Below are positions 10,110 to 64,000 of a stretch of DNA of 64,000 bases, in pieces. The DNA lies in assembly GCA_018902385.1 (NCBI GenBank), contig JABSSW010000011.1, forward strand, positions 496,001 through 560,000, read 5' to 3'. The stretch is from Physcia stellaris (Eukaryota > Ascomycota > Lecanoromycetes > Caliciales > Physciaceae). The position numbers were made by a program, and so were the translations under genes. Below the pieces are notes generated by a model, which was not told the origin of the DNA, made no database searches, and was given only the letters and a program-made list of their open reading frames with translations. Each line of letters begins with the position of its first letter. Within the stretch, counting starts at the first letter, position 1.

Positions 10110-11291
10110 TAAGTGTATTGTTGCGATTCATAGCTTAGCACGAAGTAGTGATATCATGTTTAATCCTGTACCAACTCATTAACTAATGTCCAAGACAAGG
10201 TTTCAAACGAAAATGGAAGGCAACTTCCCCTTAGTTTACATCCTCATTCTTCACGTCTAGTCATACCTTTGCCCATCTCATCTACCCGGAATCATGAGTA
10301 GCCTAGTCCACGGTGAACAACGAAGTCTTTTTTGTAAGAGCCTGGACCGGATGATGCCACCGCCCAAATCGGCGTTGCAGGCAAGGATAATATAGTGGCG
10401 ATTAGAGGCATCGCACGGAGCACCTCTAACTCCTAACGCTCTCATATTTCAGTCCATGTCCCACAGAATAATGAGCATGGCGTCAGTTGATCTCAATAAG
10501 GGAACTCGATGAGAGATTCACCGTCAAGTGTGATTCGCCCGAGCCAGATCTGCCAAGAATGACGAAAATGTCTCCCAGTAAAATTGCCCGTTGGTAGAAT
10601 AAGTTTGGCGCCTTTCGCAATCGGTTTGGATTATGATATGCCACGCTTTACTCTGCAATGCTCATTGGCCCGCTTGAAGAGCAGGGAAATAATTGCCGAG
10701 GTGTGAAACCAGTACTAATATGCATGCAGCTAAACCTTGCATAGAAGGATTCTGGATAGCAGCGTGGCAGCACACCGTTATCTTGCACCAGGCCGGATCG
10801 AGCACATCGCTGTTCATAAAGCATCCAGATCTTTGATCCCGTGTGCGAAAGGCCAATGGACTCTTTTTCAGAGACTTCTTTGATACATGTAATGTAAACT
10901 CGCGATTTCGGCTTTACGTTCATACCGACCTATCTGTGGGACTCAAGCTGTCAGGCTGACTTTGACCACAACAAGATAACATCGCCGTGAAACTTCATGT
11001 GCCAGAGACTATTTTTGTATCATATCTGATCAAGATTCAAGTTCAAACCATTCAATGCAGTGACAAAATGTGGCCGGAGTCGCTTATTCCATCTGGCCAT
11101 GGACGCATTTAAGTGTTTCGGGCCAAATTCATTCATGCAAGGTCAGACAGAGGTGGTCGGAAAAAATCTCCGTCTTCTGAAGTCAGAGACCGCATTCCTT
11201 TTTTGCAACATTTAACTTGAAGACGCTCTAATCACGGCATTGCGTTCTGTATGATACGTCAATATAAATCTCATTTTCTCAACATGATGGA
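10110..11291. other. Intergenic next to the transposon, nothing recognised
   Basis: Ordinary composition up to the target duplication at 11292. No supported gene. Confidence 0.5.
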
Positions 11292-11299
11292 TATATCAA
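11292..11299. repeat. Left target-site duplication TATATCAA
   Basis: Eight bases immediately outside the left inverted repeat, identical to 14060-14067. Confidence 0.85.
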
Positions 11300-11377
11300 G
11301 ATAATCGATATTCACATTTATCATTTCGATAAACACATTTGCAAATTCGATATACACATTTTCAAAATTTTAATTTT
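11300..11377 (+). repeat. Left terminal inverted repeat of the MULE (78 bp)
   Basis: Starts GATAATCGATATTCACAT and matches the reverse complement of 13982-14059 without a mismatch; the match breaks at position 11378. The repeat contains no CC, CT, AG or GG dinucleotide. Confidence 0.92.
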
Positions 11378-11908
11378 CGAATAATGTTCGAATTTTTCAT
11401 TCGAAAATTTGCAAAATTTTTATTCGTCATATCATGTTGCAAAAATTTCGAATTCGAACGATTCAACATTCATTGAAAATTGTTTTATTTACAAAAAATG
11501 AAAATCATTTAATATAATGAAACGATCATTTTTTTTGAATTTATTAATATATTCAATCATTTTTGTTTTTTTTGTTATTATGTTTGTCGTCGTCAAATTT
11601 TTCGTCATTGTTTTCGAAATTTTCGAAATCGTTGTCGTTTTTTTCGTTTTTTTCGTTATCGTTAAATATTTCGATAAAATGATCGATGATTTTGTTTTTA
11701 ATCGCAATCGTATTTTTTTCGTTTTTCGCGATCGTCATTTTCACGATTTTCGCGATTTTTTTTTTCGAAATTTTCGTTCGTTCGTAATTTTTTTTTCACG
11801 TGTAATCATTTTGATTCGTTTGTAACGAATTTTCATTATTTGTTTCACGATTTCGAAATTCGAAACGTCACGTTTCGTAAATTTGACGATTTTTTTTTTC
11901 AATTTTTG

Positions 11909-13457
11909 TTATTGTATTTTTTTTGTTTTGCGATTCACGAAATTTTTTTTTGATTTCATTTTTTTCGATTCGTTGACGTTTAAAAAATCATTTATTTCAA
12001 ATATCGAATTTGAATCGAAAAAAAACGCGAACGACGAAATGCGATTGTTGCGATTATGAAAAATATCGTCGAATTCAAAAAAATCGTCATCGAATATTTG
12101 TTCAATGTGTATCGATTGATAAAATAACATTGACGTTATGTTTGAAACGACAAAAACATCAATAAAATCGAAAATGAAATCGTCGAAAAAAAAATCAAAA
12201 ACGAAACGAACTTTTTGAATTTTCAATGAAAATGTACGTTTTTCAAAAATAATTTTTTTGACGTTTGAATGATGATTTGAATGATGTGAACACACGAAAA
12301 ATTCATGATTTTGATAAATGCATGATTGCACGATTGCAATGAATGTTTTTTTGATTGTTTTTCGATTTTTTTGACAAATTTATATTGTTTTTGTATTTTT
12401 TGCAATGCGTAAAATGAAATTCGATTTATTAAATTGCGCATTAAATCACGTGATAAATTTATTGCAATTTTGTTTTTGATTTGATTCAATCGATGTTCGT
12501 AATTTTTCATTTGATTCGAAATAAAAATTTTTAAACGATTTACAACGATCATGAAATTATTCGTAAAAAATTTCAACATGTGTTTCAATACGCGATGATC
12601 GTTTTTCATTCGCGAAATGATAAAAATATTGAAATGAAATATTTCGTTGATTTTGTATTTGCAAAATCGATTTCGTCATGATGTCATTCAAATGTTTTTC
12701 ACATATTGTACGTTTTTTTGATGTTCGTTTCGAAATTTACGAACGAATTTTTTGTATGTCGCATTGTATTCGATTTTGATATGAACGTAAACGATTCGAT
12801 ATCAATAAATCAAAAATTTTTTTCAAATTTTTTGCGTGCGAAAAAAATTTGCAATTTTTGAACACGTTTTTGTTGATATGTCAAATGCACAAAAAATTGA
12901 AAACGTCAAAATATTGAATTTTGAATGCGTTCATTAAAACGAAATTTTTGTCAATAACAACAACAACGAAATTTTTCAAATCGAACGATTTGTATAAAAA
13001 TTTGATTTGTTCAATGATTCAAACGAAATTTTTTTTTTTTTTTTCAATGAAAACGAAATCGATATAAAAATTCGTATTCAATGAAATATGATTCATGACA
13101 ACAAACATCGACATGTCGTATTTATTGATTTTGTACGTGCAATTCATGACGAAAATTTCGAAATTTTTGCACAAAATTTTCTTGATGTGTTTGTTGACGA
13201 AAAACAATTTTTTGATTCGTTTAATTTCGTTTTCGAACAACATTTTCGTGAATCAATTATTTCGATTCAAAATCATTAACAATGTTTGCGTAATATTGTA
13301 TTTTTTTAATCGTAATTGTTTGATTTTTTTTTTCGCATTGTAAATATTTTGAAATTGAAACAAAATGTTGAAATTCTGTTTGCGAAATTTGATTCAAATT
13401 TCGTAAAAAATAAAATTTTCGATCGATTAATTTCAATATACAAATATTTACGAACAT
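11909..13457 (-). pseudogene. MULE transposase remnant (DDE core and SWIM-type zinc finger)
   Basis: On the minus strand, 13019-13243 reads NCTYKINKYDMSMF followed by a T/LNTNFYIDFVFIE segment. This aligns with the family core DCTYKTNKYGMPLL...FAF around the first catalytic Asp of MULE transposases. Further downstream (12223-12609) a CVHII segment preceded by a Cys resembles the C-x-C...C-x-H SWIM finger at the C-terminal end of these transposases; the tail to about 11909 is Phe/Asp-rich. The core changes are Asp to Asn, Thr to Ile, Gly to Asp and Pro to Ser, each explained by C to T before C or T on one strand or the other. Stops and frame breaks separate the pieces. The N-terminal limit near 13457 is a guess. 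Confidence 0.75.
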
Positions 13458-13981
13458 ATATTTGAATCAATATCAATCGCGATATTTCGAAATATTTTTT
13501 CGATCGATTTATTGTGACAATGCATTTAATACGTAAATGTTTTGATGTTTAAATAATTATGTATTACAATTTTAACAATTATTTTTTATTTTTTATTGTC
13601 AAATAACGATTTCAAAATCATTTTTCAAAAACAAACAATTTTGATAATGTTGACGTTTTTAATTTTTTTGTTTTCGCGTTTTTTGTATATGATATTTCGA
13701 TCGTAAATCAATTCGATATAATTGAATTATTTCGTAATTTTGATTTTTTTAAAACGTCGTTTGAAAATGTCGAATTCGTGTTTTTTTGCGTCGCGTTAAA
13801 ACACATTCACAACGATTTCATAAAAATCAAATATGTAAAAATTATCATAATCGAAATCAAAATCAACGTCGTCGATCGATTCAAAAATCGAAAAATTGTT
13901 TTCGATCATGACGAGATAAATGAATGAATAAAATTTTCGATGTTTTGACAAATTTCTCGAAAATAAACAATAGAATTATTT

Positions 13982-14059
13982 AAAATTAAAATTTTGAAAA
14001 TGTGTATATCGAATTTGCAAATGTGTTTATCGAAATGATAAATGTGAATATCGATTATC
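13982..14059 (-). repeat. Right terminal inverted repeat of the MULE (78 bp)
   Basis: Mirror copy of 11300-11377, ending ...GAATATCGATTATC. Perfect identity between the two ends after heavy mutation implies that the process treated both ends identically. Confidence 0.92.
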
Positions 14060-14067
14060 TATATCAA
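14060..14067. repeat. Right target-site duplication TATATCAA
   Basis: Eight bases immediately outside the right inverted repeat, identical to 11292-11299. Confidence 0.85.
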
Positions 14068-14540
14068 TCTTTGTGTTCACTTCTTAAGGCAAAGTCGCTG
14101 TATACATACTTTGAGTGATGACAAGGGAAGAAGAAAAGATGAAACAAAATAAGAAGCGCAACAGTTTATCAGTGGCGTTAGATACATTGATGTGTAGGTA
14201 GTCTAGATGTGGTTGTTTTAATTACGGAGTACTTTACGTGCGAGAGGGTTTTAGCCCTAGTCAATGCCGTCAAATGATAATACCATGAGCCCTCCAGATC
14301 ACACAGCCATCGGTTGCATCAGCAATATGGTCGGGACTTCAATCTTGTGTGACTGCCGTGCGATCCTTGCACACGCATTCCAGCGCACATGGCCATCATT
14401 ATTGTCATTCAGTGGCATCGAGCTCGGCCCGCCACGAGATCTATGCGCATAAATTCCTCTGTCGATCTCCGGGACATTCCTCGCCCCGGGTTCATTAATC
14501 ATTAATGTCACCAGTGGGCTCCCAATTCTTAGGCGAAGTA
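14068..14540. other. Spacer between the two transposons
   Basis: Normal composition; no supported gene. Confidence 0.45.
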
Positions 14541-14678
14541 CAGTCCCTTACCACAGCGGGTGGTTAGCGTAGATGATTGTTTCTAACTTCAAGAAGTAAG
14601 CGTCACAAACACAATCCTGCTGAACCAAGATTTATTGAGTCGCTAGAGAAGCTAACCACCCGCTGTGGTAGGGGACTC
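14541..14678. mobile_element. MITE-like element, 138 bp, TA target duplication
   Basis: The left end CAGTCCCTTACCACAGCG and the right end form an inverted repeat of about 31 bases (14541-14567 plus neighbours against 14651-14678) with two mismatches. TA dinucleotides lie directly outside both ends (14539-14540 and 14679-14680). A short element with terminal inverted repeats and TA duplication and no coding capacity fits a non-autonomous Tc1/mariner-type MITE. Unlike the neighbouring MULE it keeps many CC, CT, AG and GG dinucleotides, so it escaped the mutational process. Confidence 0.75.
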
Positions 14679-15002
14679 TACCTGTAGCACGCCCTGGTGG
14701 CTGGAACAACAACCCGCCCAGCCACGTACATGCGGCAGCTCCGCCACTTACCTGTTGGATAAAGCATAGATGCTATCGTTCGGCTTTATCAGTAGTCCGA
14801 ATGGTCTCATTTCTGATTGCTTTGTAGTGCATTTTCCTCATTCGCAACCACGAAGGTGGGATTGGGGCATTATAAAGATTGTAGTGCTCTGCGCTTGAAT
14901 CACGAGCAAAAAGAGATGTCAGAATTCGATTGACATCGTCCATTTCCATTATCCTAAAAGTACCCATCACTTTGTCGTCTGTGTACCGCCTTTGTAACCG
15001 TT

Positions 15003-35922: not shown

Positions 35923-36563
35923 TTGAAGCTGATCACGTTATAGTGCGCTCAAACCGTGGTCCGCCACCTGAGGATATTCTATTGGTCGACTACGATGGAA
36001 GGCTGGAAGATGGATATGTGGAGTAGGGATCTGAAGTTTAGATTTTCTCTACTTGCGGCTTTCCCTCCAAACAATCTAATCATGACTTTCATGATATATC
36101 TTTCATCGCGTAGTCTTCCGATAGCCAGATCGCCTATCCCTAATCAAAGCGAGCGTTCCAAGTGTCTTAAGCCACAGGTAAACCGACTTGGAGACGATAT
36201 CAATTGCAAAGCTCCATTGATTAAAGTATCCATACCCAAAGACGGCCAAAGCTGGTTTCACAAAGAGCACAACCTTGCTCTTGGCGGCTGTTTAAATTAC
36301 CACCGGCCCGAGCATCATTCACCACAGCTACATGTAATGAATGTGAATCATCTACATCCTGCCTCTGCTGCACTACCTTACCCTGTACCTCTACGTGTTC
36401 CTGAGCTCGGGAGATTGGCATCAGTCATTGCGCGTCCTTCTAGCCAGATTGTACGTGTATGCACAAACGTTGAACCTATCCGATCAGAGCTAATTCTGTC
36501 AATCTACAGATTCTGGCCGATCCCGCCATCGAACCTTCTGCGATCCCTTCAACTATTCACATC
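35923..36563. other. Intergenic, nothing recognised
   Basis: A 217-codon frame runs through it but shows no motif and overlaps the next gene's start. Not supported as coding. Confidence 0.4.
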
Positions 36564-40713: not shown

Positions 40714-41485
40714 TTTCACACGACTACGTGAAGGATTTGTGAATCTAGGACATTCACAAGCTCAATTGGAAAATTTAAGCGAGCCTCGCAGCTATTTAAA
40801 CCCCCAGCTTGCTCCGAAGCAACTCTTTCTTTTACATATTTCTCAAGCAGACACTTCTATCCCATGATCTGGTACTGAGTGGTGCTAATTTTCTGTGACA
40901 GATCTTTCTAATAATATCTCCCGACAGACCTGCGATTACCCGACTTGAGACGATATCTGAAGACATCATCTATAGTCAATCACTTTGTGCCAAAGACGGA
41001 GACATATTTTGTTGCATTGAAAATGGAGATGATGGTGCATGAAAGACATAATTAGCATCACATCAGAGCATGAGATACATCTCAAATCCGATCTCTATCA
41101 TCTCGACCAATTCACGCATTGAATGAATCTTTCATTCATTCGAGCTTTCACACATCTATGTGAAGGATTTGCGGTTCTAGAACGTTCACAAGCTTCGCAA
41201 CTATTTAAATCTCCGGCTTGCCTCGAAGAAACCTTCCCATTTACATATTTCTCGAGCAGATTCTCCTATACATCTCAAACTCGATCTTTATCATCTCGAT
41301 CAATTCACGCATCGAATGGATCTTTCATTCACGCGACCTTTCACACGATTACGTGAATCTAGGACATTCACAAACTCAATGGTGAAGTTTAAGCGAACTT
41401 CGCAACTATTTAAACCCTCAGCCTGCCTCGAAACAACCTTTTCTTTTACATGTTTCTCAAGCAGACACTACCATATGATAGTGAC
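40714..41485 (+). repeat. Three degenerate promoter-like repeats
   Basis: Copies begin at 40714, 41146 and 41338 with TTTCACAC. They share, in order, a YGTGAA box, a TTCACAA block, CAACTATTTAAA-like (TATA-like), a GCYTGCYTCGAA-like block, and CATRTTTCTCRAGCAGA. The second and third also share the 60-70 bp before TTTCACAC (from about 41082 and 41274), so the full unit is 192 bp in that pair. Each looks like a core promoter plus pyrimidine-rich leader. Confidence 0.7.
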
Positions 41486-43224: not shown

Positions 43225-44571
43225 TCGGCGACATTTGAAATATTTGAGATATCGGGAATGTTGAGGATAAATACGTCCTCCCTGGAAACCTTTCTCTTTC
43301 TTGTACCTAGACGTCAGGAATATTAGCCATCGAAATTATATACAACGACGAACTTAAATTTCTCCCACCCAACAGGTAGACGTTCGAACGTTTCCAGCTG
43401 GCCCTTTGTTAAAGATACGTAAGAAGGAGTCTGAGATTCATCAGGTCTAGACATGGATGCTAACACAGAGACGACGAAACGAAAGGAGACGGAAGAAGCA
43501 AACCTTCCTATCAAACAGGAGGCTTCTCAACTTTTCTGTTTCTCGTTATTCGTCTCGTCTTTGCCTAGCACATCCACTCCTGTCGGCACCCTCGGCATCT
43601 TTTCCACCTCCCTAGGGCAGTCTCGCTCTATAGTCCGACCGCTCATTGAGAAATCGCAAAATAAAGGAAAAAGTATTCTCTGAATAGTGAATCCCCCAAT
43701 ATATAACGAATGTCGCGCTATGATAAATTACCAAACCGTTACACGAACCGATGACGTAAACAGCCTTCACTGCCTGCTAAAATACGACGCTAAAGACTGC
43801 TAGAAGAGGTCTCCGTTGGACGCCTCCCTAGCCCTTCGATCGGGACAGCAGAATCGGCCTCATTACAGTACAACAACCACGCATCATTGAGTATTCAGAA
43901 TCAGGAATCAGCATCCAGTACACATAGGGAATAGAAATATCGAGTTACAGCATTATACGGAACCATAGGAGTGCGTTGTTCAGAGCAACGTACTAGAACT
44001 CTCAGAGTGCTACCCACGAAATTTCGAAATCGGACATAACGAGTCTTAAATCCAGTACCCATACCCAGGCCAGAACAACTACGAAAACCAGCATTACACT
44101 ACGAGGTGGTGTAAATACGTCATTACTCGGTGACAGAAGCCGATATTTGACTTCGGTATATCAGAATCAGTACAAAATCAGAATCCAGTACCCAGAATCA
44201 GCATCCAGAATCCAGCATCCAGAAATCAGAAATCAGCCCCCGTCCCGATACCCCAAACACCAGTCAGTCACTTCGATACCTTGATATCAGTACAAGAATA
44301 GGTGACACAGCAAGTACCCTTGTCGGAAAGGCAATAGCAGAATTCAGAGAGTCAGAATTCGGATTACATCTCGGCCTTGCGGAGCAAGAATTCGATCAAG
44401 GAAAGAGATGGATAGTGCTGGAGATATCTGATCTTTTTGCATACAAATCGGCCTGGATCTCCGGCAGGACCTCCTGAATTACATAAGGAGCACAACTCGG
44501 TCAAATATGCACTTTTCGCATCGGTGTATGCCCGACCCCGTCATATCGATTTCTCGTCTTGATTAGTCACC
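43225..44571. other. Intergenic with degenerate AGAATCCAG-type minisatellite
   Basis: From about 43900 to 44270 short units such as ATCAGAATCCAG, ATCCAGTACC and CAGCATCCAG recur irregularly. No gene supported. Confidence 0.45.
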
Positions 44572-46890
44572 ATGGCGCCCCAGCTTTACTACGATGGAAC
44601 CACCAGTCTCAGTCACTTTCTTCACGAACTGTACGATCGATGCTATCCACAAACCCCAAGCGCATGGATAAAAGCGGTATACTGCCGTCTCGCGGGTGAG
44701 GCGCTTGAATGGGCAAAGAAAGATGAGGACGTGGTTAGAATATACTACAATGCGTATCACAACGTTGCCATCGATCGCGACGGACGTAGATTGTATCAAC
44801 TTCTTGAAATCCGATTCGCTACTCCATTGCATCATAGAGTTGACAAAGCATTGAAGGAAATCAAGCAGGGGCCTCATGAATCCATCGAGAACTATTATAC
44901 TCGCGTCAATACTCTCTTCGAGCACGTTGGAGGTCAAGATAGACCTATCGATGTTGACAAATGCCTAGATCACGAGCACGGTTCCTGTTTACTCAAAGCT
45001 GTTGATTATTTCGTTGATGGACTAAGGAACACCACATTACGTCGAAGTATGTTTAAGACACTCCAAGAAGTATCAAATGAAGGCAATGCTGCAGCTGTTA
45101 GTCTCGAATCAGTCAGTAATGCAGCCCAATGGAGCTATACAATGATAAAAAGGACTCGAAAGCTTCGAAATCGACCGTCTGCTACTTCTCAAGTCGATAC
45201 AGATACTAGTATTGTTATCGACATGTCTCAGTCTTGTCTGGAGGAAACAACGTGCGATTTACCGGAGATCAGTACATCTATCTATCCACCTGCGCATACC
45301 TCGAAACCGTGGCTTACCCAGAACTGGCGTGCTCGACCGTTACCCGAAGCCAGCTTTGTTGACGAGTCTCCGCCTGTTCTGGTGCAAATACGGCCTGAAA
45401 TATCAGAGATCAGTGCAACTACCCTGGATCCTAGTGATACCGAGTCAACCGACGAGATTCTTGCTTCTGGGCCTCCCAAATGGCCTACGCCTACTACGTT
45501 ATCTGAAATCCCTGATGCCTACGAGTCTCCGCCCGTTTTGGAGGAAATGCCATGCGATTTGTCAGAGACCAGTACAGATATCGTGAGTTCTAGTGATACT
45601 GAGTCAACGGACGAGATTCTTGCTTCTGGGCCCCGCAAATGGACTGCTGCAGAAAAGGAGGTTTTTGATTCTAATAGTACATCCGCAAGCGCCTCGAAAA
45701 GCCCGCCCGCACCTGATACTGATAAGGTTATTGAAGCAGTGAAAGCCCCGGATAATTCATTTGCTCAAGGCATTGTTGATAAGGAGACCACGAAAGAGGA
45801 GGTTTTTGAGCCCACAAGCATACGTGACCAAGAATCGAAAAACCCGCCCGCATTATACTCTGAGGATATCGAGATCTCGGCCGCCGTGGATATGTCATCT
45901 CTTGAACATCTCACCAACGAGGACAATTCTGTTATTGGAGCTTTTGATTCTGATACTGAATTAGGCCCACCTTCGAAAAACCCGTTGATACAGCATATCG
46001 AGGATTCAGAGACAATGGAGAAGACTTCTGTTTCGGCTTTTGATTCCGCTTCTGATTCGGCCTACATCTACGAACTTCCTGCACTTCCTGCCTTCGACCT
46101 GACCATTGATATCGACTTCGGGACCTATACAACCGATACCGAAGCAGTCATACACTCGAGCATTCAAGCTACTGTTACGTCACCTAGACGAAAGATGCAG
46201 CTATCACCGTTTCGTGGCCTCGCATTGCGCAACACCACATTTGGCTGGAGTCGTTCAATTTCTAGTTCTATTGACCGCCGCACGTCTTCGATTTCTACTT
46301 GTACTACTACTTCGGATGTCACAGTCGATCCTATAGAGACCGCAAAGACTGTTGATACTGCAGATACCGAGTTCTGTGAGGGAGAGCAGTTGTCCTGCTC
46401 CACGATGTATCCTTGTACTACCATTTCGGACACGGACTTCTATGAGGAGGAGCAGTCTTCCTGCTCCATTGATTGTTTTGTTTTAGCTTCTGTTGATGTC
46501 ATTTCTATTGTTAGCGAGCATAGCGATTTCTATGGGGGGGAGCAGTTTTGCTCCCCTGCTGATACTGTTGATATTGTTGAGATTATTTGCTCTGCTGTTG
46601 TTGTTGTGGATACCGACGCACTTACCCTGACCGCTGGCATGGTTAAGAAGAAGAAGGAATCTAGTTGGATATCACTTCTGGGCCTGATACTCCTGTTGGC
46701 TTGGGTCTGTATCGAATATTTGGCCACGAAATCGAAGCACAAGGGGCTACCGAAGGTGAAAATTAAGAGGTCATCAGAACCAGAGCATATCGAGTCAAGA
46801 AGTCAAACCATTGCTGGGATATCCACCGAATCCGCATACAAAATGGCCCTGTTCTCTGGCATCCAACAACGGCTAGGACCTTTGAGATAA
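44572..46890 (+). CDS. Gag-derived protein (LTR-retrotransposon kin), single frame
   Basis: One reading frame of 772 codons. The N-terminal ~170 residues resemble the capsid-like gag domain of Ty3/gypsy-type elements (segment LAGEALEWAKKDED; later IKQGPHESIENYYTRVNTLF, the usual position of the second half of the domain). No zinc knuckle, protease or polymerase follows. Instead there is a long acidic Ser/Thr-rich region with two ~60-residue internal repeats (DTESTDEILASGP in each) and a hydrophobic segment near residue 705 (WISLLGLILLLAWVCIEYLA) followed by a basic tail. No terminal repeats were found around it. The frame looks whole; it may be a solitary gag relic or a co-opted host gene. 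Age cannot be judged. Confidence 0.6.
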   Translation: MAPQLYYDGTTSLSHFLHELYDRCYPQTPSAWIKAVYCRLAGEALEWAKKDEDVVRIYYNAYHNVAIDRDGRRLYQLLEIRFATPLHHRVDKALKEIKQGPHESIENYYTRVNTLFEHVGGQDRPIDVDKCLDHEHGSCLLKAVDYFVDGLRNTTLRRSMFKTLQEVSNEGNAAAVSLESVSNAAQWSYTMIKRTRKLRNRPSATSQVDTDTSIVIDMSQSCLEETTCDLPEISTSIYPPAHTSKPWLTQNWRARPLPEASFVDESPPVLVQIRPEISEISATTLDPSDTESTDEILASGPPKWPTPTTLSEIPDAYESPPVLEEMPCDLSETSTDIVSSSDTESTDEILASGPRKWTAAEKEVFDSNSTSASASKSPPAPDTDKVIEAVKAPDNSFAQGIVDKETTKEEVFEPTSIRDQESKNPPALYSEDIEISAAVDMSSLEHLTNEDNSVIGAFDSDTELGPPSKNPLIQHIEDSETMEKTSVSAFDSASDSAYIYELPALPAFDLTIDIDFGTYTTDTEAVIHSSIQATVTSPRRKMQLSPFRGLALRNTTFGWSRSISSSIDRRTSSISTCTTTSDVTVDPIETAKTVDTADTEFCEGEQLSCSTMYPCTTISDTDFYEEEQSSCSIDCFVLASVDVISIVSEHSDFYGGEQFCSPADTVDIVEIICSAVVVVDTDALTLTAGMVKKKKESSWISLLGLILLLAWVCIEYLATKSKHKGLPKVKIKRSSEPEHIESRSQTIAGISTESAYKMALFSGIQQRLGPLR

Positions 46891-48465: not shown

Positions 48466-51400
48466 TTACTCCCCAAAGCCCCACTGGCGCATCCAAATCC
48501 CAACCCATTGCTCTCCCACCGGCGTCAATTTTTCGAGGGTGGTGCTATGCTTCTGAGTTTCTGACGTGCCCAGGACAGGCAACGGCCCAGACACCGGCTC
48601 CAAGAACTGTTTGAAGAAATCAAGGAGTCTGATCGCTGGCAGCTTCGCGATGTTGCTTTCGCTTTCTGCAGATTGTTCCAATGCTTCCAGCCAGTCGGGA
48701 AAGGGCGTCAACTGCAGTGAGGTGGTACAGTGTTCCCGGAATGAGGGGTTGAGATGCCGCCAAGTAGTCGTACGGGGGTTGACGACTTGGTATACCTTTG
48801 AAGTCCCCGTAGGCGTTGAATGATCAATACCATTTTCGATTGCTATCGGTGTGTGTGCCGCTTCGTCTAATGCCGGGATAGGATTTGAATGGTTCTTGGA
48901 ATCCTTTGAAACTTGGGATTGAACTGGAGATTGGCTGTCGCTGGTGGAGTCACACGCTACCCCTGAAGAGTTCGAGTCTGAGAGGCCACCGTTTTGCAGC
49001 TTCAGACTTTCTTCGGAACCAAACAACAGCTCTACAACGATCTGGGCGACAAGATTGACCGGGACCCAATCAATTAAGTCCATGAACGAGAGTGAGTCGG
49101 GCAACTTCCCCATATGAACAGAACTGGCAACGAGGCTTGGGAACCATTCGCTCAAGCTCCAGCATCCGTATTCGTTTGTAGGACCTGAAATTTGGCCCAC
49201 TCGACAGACGGTCGAACTAAGATTGGTACTATGTGATGCTGTCTCTATCAGTCTTTCTGCGATGAGCTTGGATTGAGCGTAACCCGTTGTTTGGCAACTT
49301 GCCCAATTCTGAGAAAAGTCTTCATGTATGGTTGCATGCTCTAGCTGGCGCTTATTACGGACCGTACTCTCGGTTGAGACAAACAACAGCTGCGCATTGC
49401 ATGCTGATTTGTTGCAAAAATCAATCAGGTGGCGGACACCGGAAATATGGGGCGTGACAAACGCTTCAAGAGAATGGTAGAAGTTAACGTCCCAAGCATT
49501 GTGTATCACGTGGGTGACTTCCTGTAACAAGGAGACAAACGTGCCTTCGTCAATCCCTAGCCCTGGCTTTGATAGGTCGCCATGCACAAAAGTCACTATC
49601 TGGAATTGCGTCGTGAGACCTTTGGATTTGGAAGAAGTCGCTTGGCGTGATTCTCCGTTTTCATTTCTGTTCATGCAATAAATCTTCTGAACCTTGCCGC
49701 AAGACAAGAGCGTATCAAGGATATAAGATCCAAGCGAGCCGGTAGATCCAGTCAGAAGGACGACTAGATCACTACTGGGACTTGAGGGAGAGATCGGTTC
49801 TCCTTGTACAAAATTTGCTGAATATTCGTCAAAGATGGCCTCCATTCTTTGAGATTCATTCGACGAAGGGTCAACCACGTTCTGCAAGGCATGCTCCAAA
49901 CTTTGAATACTAGAATGGGCGTAGATTGTCTGAGGTGTGATTGGTTTCGTACTAGGTTGGGCTTGCATAAGGTAAGAATTGATCTGCTTCGATAGCGAGA
50001 TCGTTTGTAGGGAATCGAGACCCAACGCGAAGAGATTGGAGTCAAAGGTCAATTCGCCCTTTAGCCAAGTACACGCTGAGACGAGTCGGTATAGCGCGTC
50101 ACGCAAAGTCTCCGAATTCTGAAATTCAGTCCCAGTGAGTAGCTCTGGAGATCTATTAGGCAACTCTGGCATCTCGTAGAGACGATTGATCTCTTCTTCG
50201 TATAGCTGTAGCGTCATCATCCGCTGGACGGTTCCTTTACCAGCACGTTCTACACCCTTCGTTTCGTCTGTGAAGAGTATAAAATCCTTCATGACTTTTG
50301 CATGAGCAGGGCAAGCGCGGCTGGCTTCTAAAACAATCGGCCAGATGTGGTTCAACAAGCTAGAGTTGTCGTAGCCGTTCTTGTCGACTTCGCCCGGCTC
50401 AATCAATAAGCAGGGTTGAAATTTACCATGTCCACCGACTATCGCCGTCTTGATGCTTGGATGAGCCATAAGGGCGCTCTCGAAGTCTACAGGGTTGAAC
50501 TTCTCAGCAGACGAAAAGACGATGACATCATCTGTCCGGCCACAGAACTTCCACAGGTTTGGCTGAGTTGGGTGCTGTCGATATAAATCCTTGGTCGAGA
50601 ACTCGTCCGTGTCAGGGTACGTGGAAAAAACACCCTGAAAAAGGTCCAGTTCTCTCCTCCTGACAATGAACTGTTCATGAAGCCCATCCTCGTGCAAGGG
50701 CCGGAAAATGTTCCCGCAAAAGGGACTATAGCAAACGTAGTCCCAATATTCTGACTCGATCAGTTCTTGTGGAGGGAAAGCAGTCTCTGTAGAGCCAAAA
50801 GCCGTCGAAAGATGTGTGACCTTGGATATGCCGTCTCCTACATCCTGAGGAAGAGGCCCACCAGCATAGAAAACATACTTCAAACGACCAAGTCTTGACA
50901 GCAATGGCTTTTCGTGGTATAAGTCAACGAGTATGGAAGGCGGAAGTACACTGCCATCTACTTGAGCATTCCCGTGGACCGAGTCTATTAGGTGTGCAGT
51001 CATTAACTCGCTGGACGGAGGAAGGACAACAACCGCGCCATAATATACTGCAAGGCCAAGCAGTAGGGTGAAGCTTGCCATATGGAAGAGGGGAAACCCT
51101 ATGAATATTTTTGTCCCTTGAAGAGAACAGCCTAGGATTTGTCTACCAGTAAGTAATGGAATCAGCTGATTGGCGTCCATACTCGCCAGTGTGCCATGGT
51201 TGACACTGACAGTCTGCGGCATCCCTGTTGACCCTGAGGTATGTAACACAACGAATGGCGAAAATCGTACATGTTCAAAGCTTTCGTTATATGGATAGCT
51301 GGGGACCTCATTTGGCTGGAGAAATATATCAAGTCCAGGAACGCTAATCTCTCTCATAGCTTTTCCACCAACCATATTTCTGAGGCTCGGAGGTATCGAT

Positions 51401-51858
51401 GTCTGGATTAGGGAGATCTTGCAGCCTATTGCATCAAAGAGGTGTGCATTGGCCGCAGAGCTGTTACGGTGAGAGGGCAGGAAAGCCTACCAGCTATCAG
51501 TAATCCCTGCTGGATTTGAGGGTACTGATCTCACAGTGTGCCCAATCTTGACTGCCGCTAGAGTCACGATATGATACATCAGATCCAAAGGTCCGACATA
51601 AGCAATCGTTTCGTGAGCAATGTCCCTTCCCAACTCCATCTCCAACCACCAGGAGCATCTGTTGATTGCATTAGCAAGTCGAGCGAAACTGATTTCGTCG
51701 AAGCCATCTTCCGGGTTTGCAGTCCTTGGTAACAAAGCGAACGGTCTCTTGGGGTCTGAACCTGCTATCTCGTCGATAGTGGTGAGTAAGAGCCGTTGTC
51801 CACAGTTATGTCTGGGCGAATTGTGATCGTACGATGGCTGTGAGACACTGACAGTCAT
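48466..51858 (-). CDS. NRPS-like enzyme, adenylation-thiolation-reductase
   Basis: Two exons (51535-51858, 48466-51486) across a 48-nt intron (donor GTGAGA, acceptor GGTAG) give about 1,114 residues. An adenylation domain (core motif HTSGSTGMPQTVSVNH near residues 190-205; later GRTDDVIVFSSAEKFNP) is followed by a carrier domain with the phosphopantetheine Ser in LGLDSL (about 597). A thioester-reductase domain follows, with the NAD(P)-binding LLTGSTGSLGSYIL (about 687). There is no condensation domain. Such enzymes activate a carboxylic acid (aryl or alpha-keto acid, or amino acid), load it on the carrier and release it reductively as aldehyde or alcohol. The Lys2 architecture is similar but Lys2 is longer and differs in its N-terminus. 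Substrate unknown. It is flanked by GMC oxidoreductase genes, which fits a small biosynthetic locus. Confidence 0.88.
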
Positions 51859-53069
51859 TCTTGAGAATTAGCTGTTTGAAATTTGATTATTGATCACGAT
51901 GCCACAGTTTGGACGCTCATATCCAGGGTGGTCATGAGGAGGGAGTTACCAGAAGAGATGGTAGAGGGCTAGTACAAAGATTGCGTGCCCTGCTGCAGAG
52001 ATGGATTCGAGACCGAACAGGTCCTTCACCATTTGCGAGCATTGCCTGGTCTTCTTCCAGGGTCCCTGGCATGTCCGAGATGTCGTGACACGTAATATTG
52101 CTGACTTGCACAGATCGGCTGCCAGTAGTTGACGTGATGCGGCAGTCTGCCCATTTTGCGAGGATGGCTTCATGCGACCACTGCGATATGCTATCGTCGT
52201 CCACTGTGCGAACTCACTCTTGCACTGCGAGCATCGCATTCGTGCCAAGACCGGCAATAAACTCCAATTATCCCGATTTGGGGCGATGCCAGGGCGTAGA
52301 TTGGACGGCTTATGAAGACCGTTCTTGCTGATACCGTATGAAACCTGCATTTCGCATCCCAGATGACTGTGATACCTGAGGCGCGTACACGTAGATCCTG
52401 GAGGATGAGGATTCGAGGTCTGCCCATATCGAATGTCTCGCATATAGCTGCGCGCTAGGTGGTAAATAAGGCAAAAGAAGGCAACTACCCAAGCCTTGTC
52501 AACATCCAATCTTCGGACGCATCTTTTTTGAGCCTCCTGCATATCCACCGCCGCCCTATCCGGAGAATTGCGGCACTTACTCCTTCGGGACCCAATAGGA
52601 ACTCCTCTGCTACTAGTTGCTGAGAGGGCATCCCTTCTCCACACCACCTTGACGCACGGCCGCATTATTGGACACACATTGTCATCCCATTGTCAGGCGT
52701 ATGCAATCATCAAAGAGGCAGATACCCAATCGAAGACACACCCGCTTCCTTCGCCCCAGGCCTCGCGCGTCACTGTATCCGTTTGCGCATCGCGGGTTTA
52801 TCGTCGCTATGATCCAGAGGGAGGGTGACTTCAATTCAGATGAAGAACCATTACTCCCCTTTCAAAAGTTCTACCATGTGAAGTTGACTATTCTTCTTGA
52901 GTAACAGCAGCTAAGATCATTGACATATTTTCCACCAAAACAGGGATCTTAGGCTCACTCGGCCAGTTTCACCTTCCCTGCATTGTCCTCGTGAACAACA
53001 CGAGGGAAATACATGACCAGACAGTCGAATCACTGACTGCCAACGCCTTCTTGGTTGGCACGCGTCGCA
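51859..53069. other. Intergenic, no supported gene
   Basis: A minus-strand frame of 243 codons (51946-52677) exists but lacks recognisable motifs. In another frame a short coding-like piece starts with MPSQQLVAEEFLLGPEG near 52632, possibly a first exon of an unknown gene. Confidence 0.4.
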
Positions 53070-55023
53070 ATGCACGTACTGGAATCGGTCCGTTCTTTGC
53101 TCATCCTTGTTCCAATCCTGCAGGTTGTCCGCGGGCAGGCTAAGGCACAATCCCAAGGGCAACCGACTGTTGCCCATTCGCCTGGCGTTCCCGGGATCAA
53201 TGCCACGTTCGACTACGTAATCATCGGAGGTGGTACAGCAGGATTAACTGTTGCTTCTCGTCTCGCAGCTGAACCCTCAATCAGCGTGGCCGTGGTCGAA
53301 GCCGGGGGTTACTATGAGGCTGATGATGGCAACGTCAGTGTCGTCCCCGGGTATTGTACTCGGTATGCAGGGACAGATCCGACTGATACGAATCCATTGG
53401 TGGATTGGGGTTTTGAGACAGTGACTCAAGCAGTAAGCAGATCGTGGATGTTGATCATGGTAGTCGTTTGACCTCTTAACGAGAGATTAGGGAGCCGACA
53501 ACAGACGCCTTCATTATGCTCGTGGCAAGACCTTAGGGGGATCTTCCGCGAGAAACTTTCTGTACTATCATAGGCAAACAGTAGGCTCTGCGCAGAAGTG
53601 GGCAGCTGACACCCAGGACACTACCTATACCTTCTCCCGGTTGTTGCCGTATTATAAGAAAAGTGTCAATTACACCGCCCCGACTGTCTCATACACCAAT
53701 AGTACAAACAGGCAGGATGAGTCCGTTTTCGACAGGGGCGGAGGCCCTCTACATGTCTCGCATGGAGGCTACAATGACCCTTTTGCGACCTGGGTTCTTC
53801 CTGCTCTCCAAGGTATCGGACAAAGAGCTCTTGATGGGTTTCAAAGTGGTAATCTGCTGGGATCTGCATATGTGCCTGCTACCATTGATCCTACTAAGGC
53901 AACAAGATCCACTTCGGAATCGAGTTTCCTCGATGGTGCCGTTGGTCACACAACCCTCAAGGTATACAAGAATACCCTTGCTCTGAGGCTGCTGTTCAAT
54001 GGCGGAAAAGCTACGGGTATCTCCGTTAGCTCTGAAGGGTTATCCAACCATTACGTACTGAATGCGCGGCGAGAGGTCATAGTATCCGCGGGTGCATTTC
54101 AGTCGCCGCAACTTCTTATGGTATCTGGCATTGGCCCTCGCAGAGTACTCGACAGCCTCAAAATCCCAGTGCTTGTGAACCTCCCAGGTGTTGGACAGAA
54201 TCTGTGGGACCATGCCTGGTTCGGAACAACATTCAGGGTGAACGTGCCAACCAATTCTGCTGGACTCAACAACCCCAAACTGGCTGCCGCGGCTGTAGAA
54301 GCATATGTGAAGAGCGCAAAGGGTCCTCTCTCCGTATCCGGAACAATGGTGCTCGGCTTTGAACGTTTGCCGCCAAATTTCCGAAATGCCTTGAGTGTTG
54401 CTACACGCAAGGCTTTGGATGAGACATTTCCGGCTGACTGGCCAGATCTTGAATTTCTCCCCGTGAGTGGTTATCTCGGGAACCACTCAAATTATGAACT
54501 CGCGGATCCACGCGATGGATATAATTATGCATCAGTAGCTACAGCGCTGGTCGCCCCCCTTAGTCGTGGAAATATTTCAATCAATAGTACCAGCATGCTA
54601 GATGCACCACTAATAAATCCAAATTGGCTCACTCACCCTGCAGATATTGAGCTAGCTATTGCATCTTTCAGACGACAGCGTCAAGTGTGGACAAGAATGA
54701 ATAACCTTACCATTGGACAGGAGCAAGTTCCAGGCGCGTCTGTACAAAGCGATGCAGAGATCCTACGATACATCCGCGATAACCTAGCACCAGTCTGGCA
54801 TGCAGCTGCTACTTGTAAGATGGGGCACAGTGGCGACAAGATGGCTGTTATCGATACACACGCGAGAGTCTACGGAGTCCGCGGACTACGGGTAGTGGAT
54901 GCAAGTAGTTTCCCATTCCTACCACCTGGACATCCTCAAGCAACTGTCTATGCTCTGGCGGAGAAAATTTCGGATCAAATACTGCAGGAATTGCGAAAGC
55001 CTGTCGCCACATCAAAAAGTTGA
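53070..55023 (+). CDS. Secreted GMC (glucose-methanol-choline) oxidoreductase
   Basis: Two exons (53070-53432, 53491-55023) across a 58-nt intron encode 631 residues. A signal peptide (hydrophobic LLILVPILQVV near residues 10-20) precedes the FAD-binding fold FDYVIIGGGTAGLTVASRLA (GGGTAG at 53-58). GKTLGGSSARNF is the first GMC signature and GAFQSPQLLMVSGIGP the second. The catalytic His lies in VWHAAATCKMG and its partner in PPGHPQATVYALAE. It oxidises an alcohol, using FAD and passing electrons to oxygen or another acceptor. Substrate is not readable (aryl-alcohol, choline or glucose types all share these motifs). It lies 1.2 kb from the start of the divergent NRPS-like gene and may act on its aldehyde/alcohol product. 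Confidence 0.9.
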
Positions 55024-63675: not shown

Positions 63676-64000
63676 TTTGTACAATAATTCACATTCATCA
63701 CATGTACGATAAATAATATTATCATGAATATAAACACGTTGCATTTTACATATTTGTAACAAATTATAAGTTCGACAATGTTTGTCAAACATCATTCGAA
63801 TCGATTTATATTATTTTACAACGTTCGAACGTTGATTTCATGCATCGATCGAAAAATCTTTGATTGATTAAACGACGATCAAGTTCGAAAACATCAAATT
63901 GAATTCACAACGAGTTTATCGTCATTTAATGTCGTCAATAAAATGCATATTGTTTACTCTAACGATCGTCATTTAATTTCTCAAAAATTCAAAAAATCAA
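63676..64000. mobile_element. Edge of a second AT-rich, CpY-poor block (cut by the window end)
   Basis: From about 63676 the sequence becomes strongly AT-rich with many CG and CA but few CC, CT, AG and GG (about seven by eye in 320 bases). This is the same bias as in the MULE, though less complete. No terminal repeat or coding motif is visible, so the kind of element is unknown. Confidence 0.5.

Follow-up and report, generated by a model that had tools for sequence, protein, structure and literature searches.

A MULE transposon of Physcia stellaris probably inactivated by RIP-like hypermutation of CpC and CpT rather than CpA

A DNA transposon of the MULE type, 2760 bp long, is present in a stretch of 64,000 nucleotides from the ascomycete Physcia stellaris (assembly GCA_018902385.1, contig JABSSW010000011.1, positions 496,001 to 560,000 of the forward strand; hereafter the window, with positions numbered from its first letter). 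We report here that this element has probably been inactivated by C:G-to-T:A hypermutation that resembles repeat-induced point mutation (RIP) but is targeted to CpC and CpT rather than to CpA. The dinucleotides CpC and CpT (CpY, Y being a pyrimidine) and their bottom-strand counterparts (RpG, R being a purine) are nearly missing from the element, exactly up to its ends; its trinucleotide spectrum nearly matches that of local DNA converted from CpY to TpY, and its coding region carries the damage that such conversion predicts. On this reading cytosine would have changed to thymine, repeats would have been the target, and the enzyme responsible would read the base 3' of the cytosine.

The original prediction, made from the letters of the sequence, held that positions 11300-14059 contain no CC or GG and only six CT or AG dinucleotides, with CA/TG and CG retained, and recounting gave exactly this (CC 0, GG 0, CT 4, AG 2; CA 141, TG 183, CG 171, TA 156). 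The base composition of the element itself would lead to 336 CC/GG/CT/AG, and the lowest count in 2000 mononucleotide shuffles was 297. Comparison of dinucleotides inside and outside, which had been proposed as a check, set the six against 531-753 in each of 555 windows of equal length outside the element (overlapping, moved in steps of 100 bp, reaching 63660). The three longest runs free of these dinucleotides in the whole window (970, 912 and 538 bp) all lie inside the element, of which blastn found no second copy within the window.

The coordinates of the depletion coincide with the ends of exactly one transposon (Table 1), which has the features of the MULE superfamily, namely a MULE transposase domain, long terminal inverted repeats (78 bp) and a short target-site duplication (8 bp). 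These are common to fungal MULE transposons, from which the element differs in its destroyed coding region and in the length of its duplication, 9-11 bp being common among MULE elements. The depletion is limited to the transposon and its edges are sharp: the dinucleotides spanning the two junctions are unconverted, as are the nearest fully external sites at 11289 and 14069, and the flanks are unconverted from 10 bp away. Half of the six CT/AG sites left in the element fall within the 60 bp adjoining the right inverted repeat (13914-13973), a cluster that may possibly reflect later change or gene conversion.

Two histories would leave the junctions unconverted: mutation in place that stopped where repeat homology ended, or mutation that preceded the element's arrival here. 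The second alternative supposes that hypermutation took place at another locus and that the dead copy was then moved here in trans, the CpY signature predating the insertion. Both junction CpT sites escaped despite approximately 99% conversion inside, for which the chance is about (6/657)^2, near 8e-5, and the perfect duplication and the identity of the inverted repeats at 78 of 78 bases are as in a young insertion. However, mutation in place, if bounded by repeat homology, also leaves the junctions unconverted, fully converted inverted repeats would be identical anyway, and the move requires a transposase that recognises converted ends. We consider this order of events unlikely, although it deserves serious consideration.

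Eleven candidate context rules were run forward on flanking DNA (21 segments of 2760 bp neighbouring the element), and each was scored as a deviance over 10 dinucleotide classes. The flank frequencies predict 657 CpY/RpG sites where the element has six, i.e. approximately 99% converted. Conversion of CpY gave a deviance of 46, as against 713 for CpT only, 1247 for CpC only, 2775 for CpG plus CpC, 6113 for CpA only and 14089 for CpN; the last, which corresponds to changes spread evenly over all contexts and had been named as a finding that would speak against the idea, was the worst of the 11. The counts in the element and in the converted flank (mean ± standard deviation) were 229 and 230 ± 14 for AC/GT, 369 and 357 ± 19 for TC/GA, 1081 and 1100 ± 56 for TT/AA, 385 and 386 ± 16 for AT, 38 and 36 ± 8 for GC, 171 and 138 ± 15 for CG, 324 and 382 ± 20 for CA/TG, and 156 and 132 ± 12 for TA. 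The trinucleotide spectrum correlated with that of the converted flank at r = 0.991, within the range that the 21 converted segments gave when left out one at a time (0.987-0.998), and with that of the unconverted flank at 0.39. The GC content of the element was 24.4%, that of the converted segments 20.7-26.0%. Any degree of CpG conversion worsened the fit at every level of CpA conversion tried; CpG conversion is not favoured, and about 0-10% conversion of CpA is compatible with the counts. The CpY context rule is well supported, and the spectrum fits the prediction that C became T on both strands only where a pyrimidine followed, and nearly to completion, with CpG spared and CpA either spared or at most approximately 10% converted.

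These counts also bear on other sources of such changes. Ordinary damage, by ultraviolet mutation of dipyrimidines or by loss of methylated CpG, gives C-to-T changes by both routes. Ultraviolet damage also strikes TpC, however, and TpC has not been lost (TCA plus TCG 362, 355 expected); CpG, which decay of methylated sites would deplete, stands at 171 against 138 ± 15; and neither route would stop at the ends of a transposon. This explanation is scarcely credible. A deaminating activity outside the RID class of methyltransferases (see below) was also weighed, in the form of a DNA cytidine deaminase that reads the 3' base or of an attack on every C with CpA and CpG protected. Near-complete conversion of both strands that spares CpG and nearly all CpA, unlike RIP in those parts of the published descriptions that were compared, speaks for such an activity, and protection of CpR would reach the same end state. 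AID/APOBEC-type enzymes, on the other hand, read the 5' base, yet C survives after A, G and T alike where a purine follows (ACR, GCR and TCR are all retained, the six NCR counts each within z 2.8 of expectation), and we know of no deaminase that reads the 3' base or spares CpR in this manner. We regard this activity as improbable.

The coding region supplies evidence on the direction of change. Frame A, read through its TGA codons, matched the Pfam MULE domain (E 2.7e-10; score 41 bits, cut-off 27.6), as one of seven read-through frames scanned. Frame B, for which the Pfam scan was without a match, probably encodes the C-terminal part of the same transposase, displaced into a different frame, a likeness judged by eye against MULE motifs only, and an apparent frameshift between the two lies somewhere in their overlap (12740-12933). 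Placed end to end, the two frames comprise 429 codons, of which seven are TGA; TAA and TAG are missing, as are all codons for Gly, Pro and Trp. The CpY rule, run forward on six long open reading frames (ORFs) of the window, including one (44563-46887) without a Pfam match, produced 3537 codons with 62 TGA and again neither TAA nor TAG nor any codon for Gly, Pro or Trp, whereas the CpA rule instead yielded 206 TAA/TAG. The shares of several amino acids in the joined frames were close to those in the simulated ORFs (Gln 4.4 and 4.1%, His 3.5 and 2.6%, Cys 1.6 and 1.6%, Arg 3.7 and 3.3%).

Because the MULE-matching frame has in-frame TGA and lacks Gly, Pro and Trp codons, the ancestor would have contained CC and CT; judged from its sequence, a recognisable MULE transposase could not have worked in its present state. 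This argues against an ancestor already without CC/CT, the other finding that had been named as fatal to the prediction. A transposon always so composed, with no hypermutation, would accord with the fact that two stretches of the window, perhaps of related families, share this composition (see below). With the standard code, however, a transposase that works is very unlikely to have such a frame, and local DNA after conversion has nearly the spectrum of the element; we consider original composition extremely improbable.

The agreement in di- and trinucleotides, together with the damaged coding region, leads us to infer C:G-to-T:A transitions on both strands, as in RIP. Neurospora-type RIP, a process of repeated DNA that takes place during the sexual cycle, ahead of meiosis, further shares with the element confinement to a transposon, a density of mutation that kills genes and dependence on the 3' base. 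It differs in that the element keeps almost all of its CpA, has no RIP-like TpA excess and has lost approximately 99% of CpC and CpT. The contrast with CpA-type RIP drawn in the original prediction is borne out, CA/TG and TA standing at 324 and 156 as against 382 and 132 in the converted flank, with at most about 10% of CpA converted. The RIP indices of the element (TpA/ApT 0.41; (CpA+TpG)/(ApC+GpT) 1.41) would score it as having no RIP. Canonical thresholds, as printed in PMC10998396, were passed by none of the 127 windows of 1000 bp in the 64-kb stretch, and the standard indices miss both depleted stretches.

The published accounts were compared in the parts relevant to target context, and what follows is limited to those parts. 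RIP in Neurospora requires the cytosine-methyltransferase homologue RID, and RIP-like defences have been concluded to have a CpA preference in common (PMC12543289). In Botrytis, Sclerotinia and Magnaporthe, CpT signatures accompany those of CpA, with CpT predominant in Magnaporthe and one Botrytis strain (T4), and mutation signatures are tied to Dnmt1 subclasses (PMC4352252). In Neurospora Tad1, CpT changes outnumber CpA changes, and short rDNA repeats of S. nodorum show CpT but no CpA change, which the RIPCAL authors think is perhaps not RIP (PMC2621366). CpT-to-TpT is dominant in RIP-capable controls (PMC7882544), CpA and CpT are found together in Anisogramma (PMC10998396), CpC-to-TpT double mutations are mentioned beside CpA (PMC8959702), and CpG-biased RIP-like mutation is described in basidiomycetes and Tuber (PMC4014442, PMC4352252). 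The fungi with CpT signatures (Botrytis, Sclerotinia, Magnaporthe, Anisogramma, Neurospora Tad1 and the RIP-capable controls) thus share a CpT target with the element, but theirs also include CpA targets or TpA-based indices that score as RIP, whereas in the element CpA is almost untouched and CpC fully converted. The CpG-biased process is likewise RIP-like with another dinucleotide, and the element differs from it in retaining CpG. Loss of CpC and CpT with CpA spared was found in none of the RIP accounts compared, which is not a claim that it is absent from print. That RIP can have CpT as a major target alongside CpA is therefore known; full loss of CpC and CpT with CpA nearly intact is not among the patterns in these accounts.

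Depletion of the same kind in a second stretch, which runs into the end of the window, lends support to RIP-like hypermutation. Positions 63679-64000 contain seven CpY/RpG sites where flank frequencies predict 77, with CA/TG (44, 45 expected) and CG (18, 16 expected) retained. A motif from the inverted repeats of the MULE, chosen by eye after viewing both, recurs close to the beginning of this stretch with 12 of 13 bases equal, and translated comparison (6 x 6 frames, no composition correction) gave a weak match to frame B with E 0.006. DNA similarity between the element and this stretch was no better than that of shuffles, 98 of 100 scoring as high on each strand. The stretch is therefore only a candidate MULE relic. 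At 36335-36347 the minus strand carries the inverted-repeat motif TTCACATTYATCA with one mismatch, in DNA that is not CpY-depleted; this match is probably due to chance.

Several observations weigh against the reading proposed here. CA/TG at 324 is just below the range of the 21 converted segments (336-425) and TA at 156 just above it (109-153), all other classes being within range; both deviations point towards some loss of CpA. In agreement, adding 5% CpA conversion to the CpY rule fitted slightly better than none (deviance 39 against 46; 41 at 10%, 66 at 20%). The largest trinucleotide residuals were TCA (163 against 207 ± 16, z -2.8) and TCG (199 against 148 ± 20, z +2.5). In the second stretch TA is 26 where 15 are expected, with CA/TG unchanged. 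In the joined frames Asp (1.9%) and Thr (2.6%) are below the simulated 5.1 and 4.3%, and Lys (14.7%) is above 10.1%. The lack of GGN, CCN and TGG codons, and nearly also of TAG, follows from the absence of CC/GG/CT/AG and is not independent evidence; the frames were selected from stop to stop for lack of TAA/TAG; and 46 of 1000 dinucleotide shuffles reached a read-through ORF of 265 codons, 16 of 1000 with a second ORF of at least 229. ORF length was consequently set aside as weak evidence of coding, and it is the Pfam match with in-frame TGA that carries the argument. The C-to-T direction is deduced from this single copy, RIP targets in the compared parts of the literature are CpA or CpA with CpT or CpG (PMC2621366, PMC4352252, PMC12543289), and the search for a methyltransferase gene covered the 10 ORFs scanned in the window only.

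A RIP-style process is favoured because the changes follow a 3'-base rule, affect both strands and are confined to a transposon, and the element is classed as a probable RIP variant rather than a proven member because the CpA preference is lacking. The enzyme would most likely be a cytosine methyltransferase of the RID/DIM-2 class with altered specificity, acting together with deamination, and enough rounds of mutation would have occurred to convert approximately 99% of CpY on both strands. We further put forward, tentatively, that an almost deterministic fungal CpY mutator, whether a RID-class enzyme of new specificity or another enzyme, has replaced CpA-type RIP altogether and, being invisible to RIP indices, has perhaps been overlooked elsewhere.

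Table 1 Coordinates of the transposon and related features in the window
Feature	Position	Strand	Basis or remark
MULE-type DNA transposon, whole, CC/GG/CT/AG-depleted	11300..14059	.	dinucleotide counts, repeat ends
Left target-site duplication, 8 bp	11292..11299	+	8/8 bases equal 14060-14067
Junction-spanning AG (bottom-strand CpT), unconverted	11299..11300	.	
Left terminal inverted repeat, 78 bp	11300..11377	+	78/78 bases identical to right repeat
Frame B, TGA read through	12139..12933	-	265 codons, 6 TGA, 0 TAA/TAG
Transposase frame A, TGA read through	12740..13426	-	Pfam MULE PF10551; 229 codons, 4 TGA, 0 TAA/TAG, no Gly/Pro/Trp codons
Right terminal inverted repeat, 78 bp	13982..14059	-	78/78 identical to left repeat
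Junction-spanning CT, unconverted	14059..14060	.	
Right target-site duplication, 8 bp	14060..14067	+	8/8 bases equal 11292-11299
Second depleted stretch, cut by window end	63677..64000	.	left edge set by eye

The window is fungal in character, the 10 ORFs scanned including a cytochrome P450, a CMAS-type methyltransferase and others, with Pex2/Pex12-type and RING ORFs in overlapping frames. A GMC oxidoreductase had patulin synthase as its best PDB match (E 4.3e-135); it lies beside an AMP-binding/reductase enzyme, the two together at 48469-55020, and these are possibly secondary-metabolite genes. Inverted arms of 31 nt, 94% complementary and 82 nt apart (14538-14568 and 14651-14681), lie 479 bp past the element with CC/GG kept; they may represent a small non-autonomous transposon whose length does not suffice for repeat-directed mutation. 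Self-comparison of the window revealed local direct repeats, 79-87% identical, at 40739-41469 and 45362-45642. The lowest CpY share outside the two depleted stretches, 0.23 in 150 bp at 2001-2150, looks like chance by estimate.

Searches with the element's proteins gave three pattern matches in viral contigs and 20 in genome contigs, none of them confirmed; the exact inverted-repeat pattern was not found in viral contigs, nor any match to the element among plasmids by tblastn and blastn, all collections with few or no fungal genomes in which misses carry little weight. The same holds for a PDB search of the element up to E 10 (0 matches). Rfam and tRNA scans gave nothing.

RIP surveys mostly seek loss of CpA and gain of TpA, and this element scores as unmutated by such means despite the apparent conversion of approximately 99% of its CpY. 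Conversion so exact in context and so nearly complete leaves predictable damage, Trp codons becoming TGA stops and Gln codons surviving. If the process is general, one form of genome defence would have been missed so far, and the host methyltransferase would be a natural specificity variant in which the residues that set the RIP target, and the deamination that ensues, could be studied.
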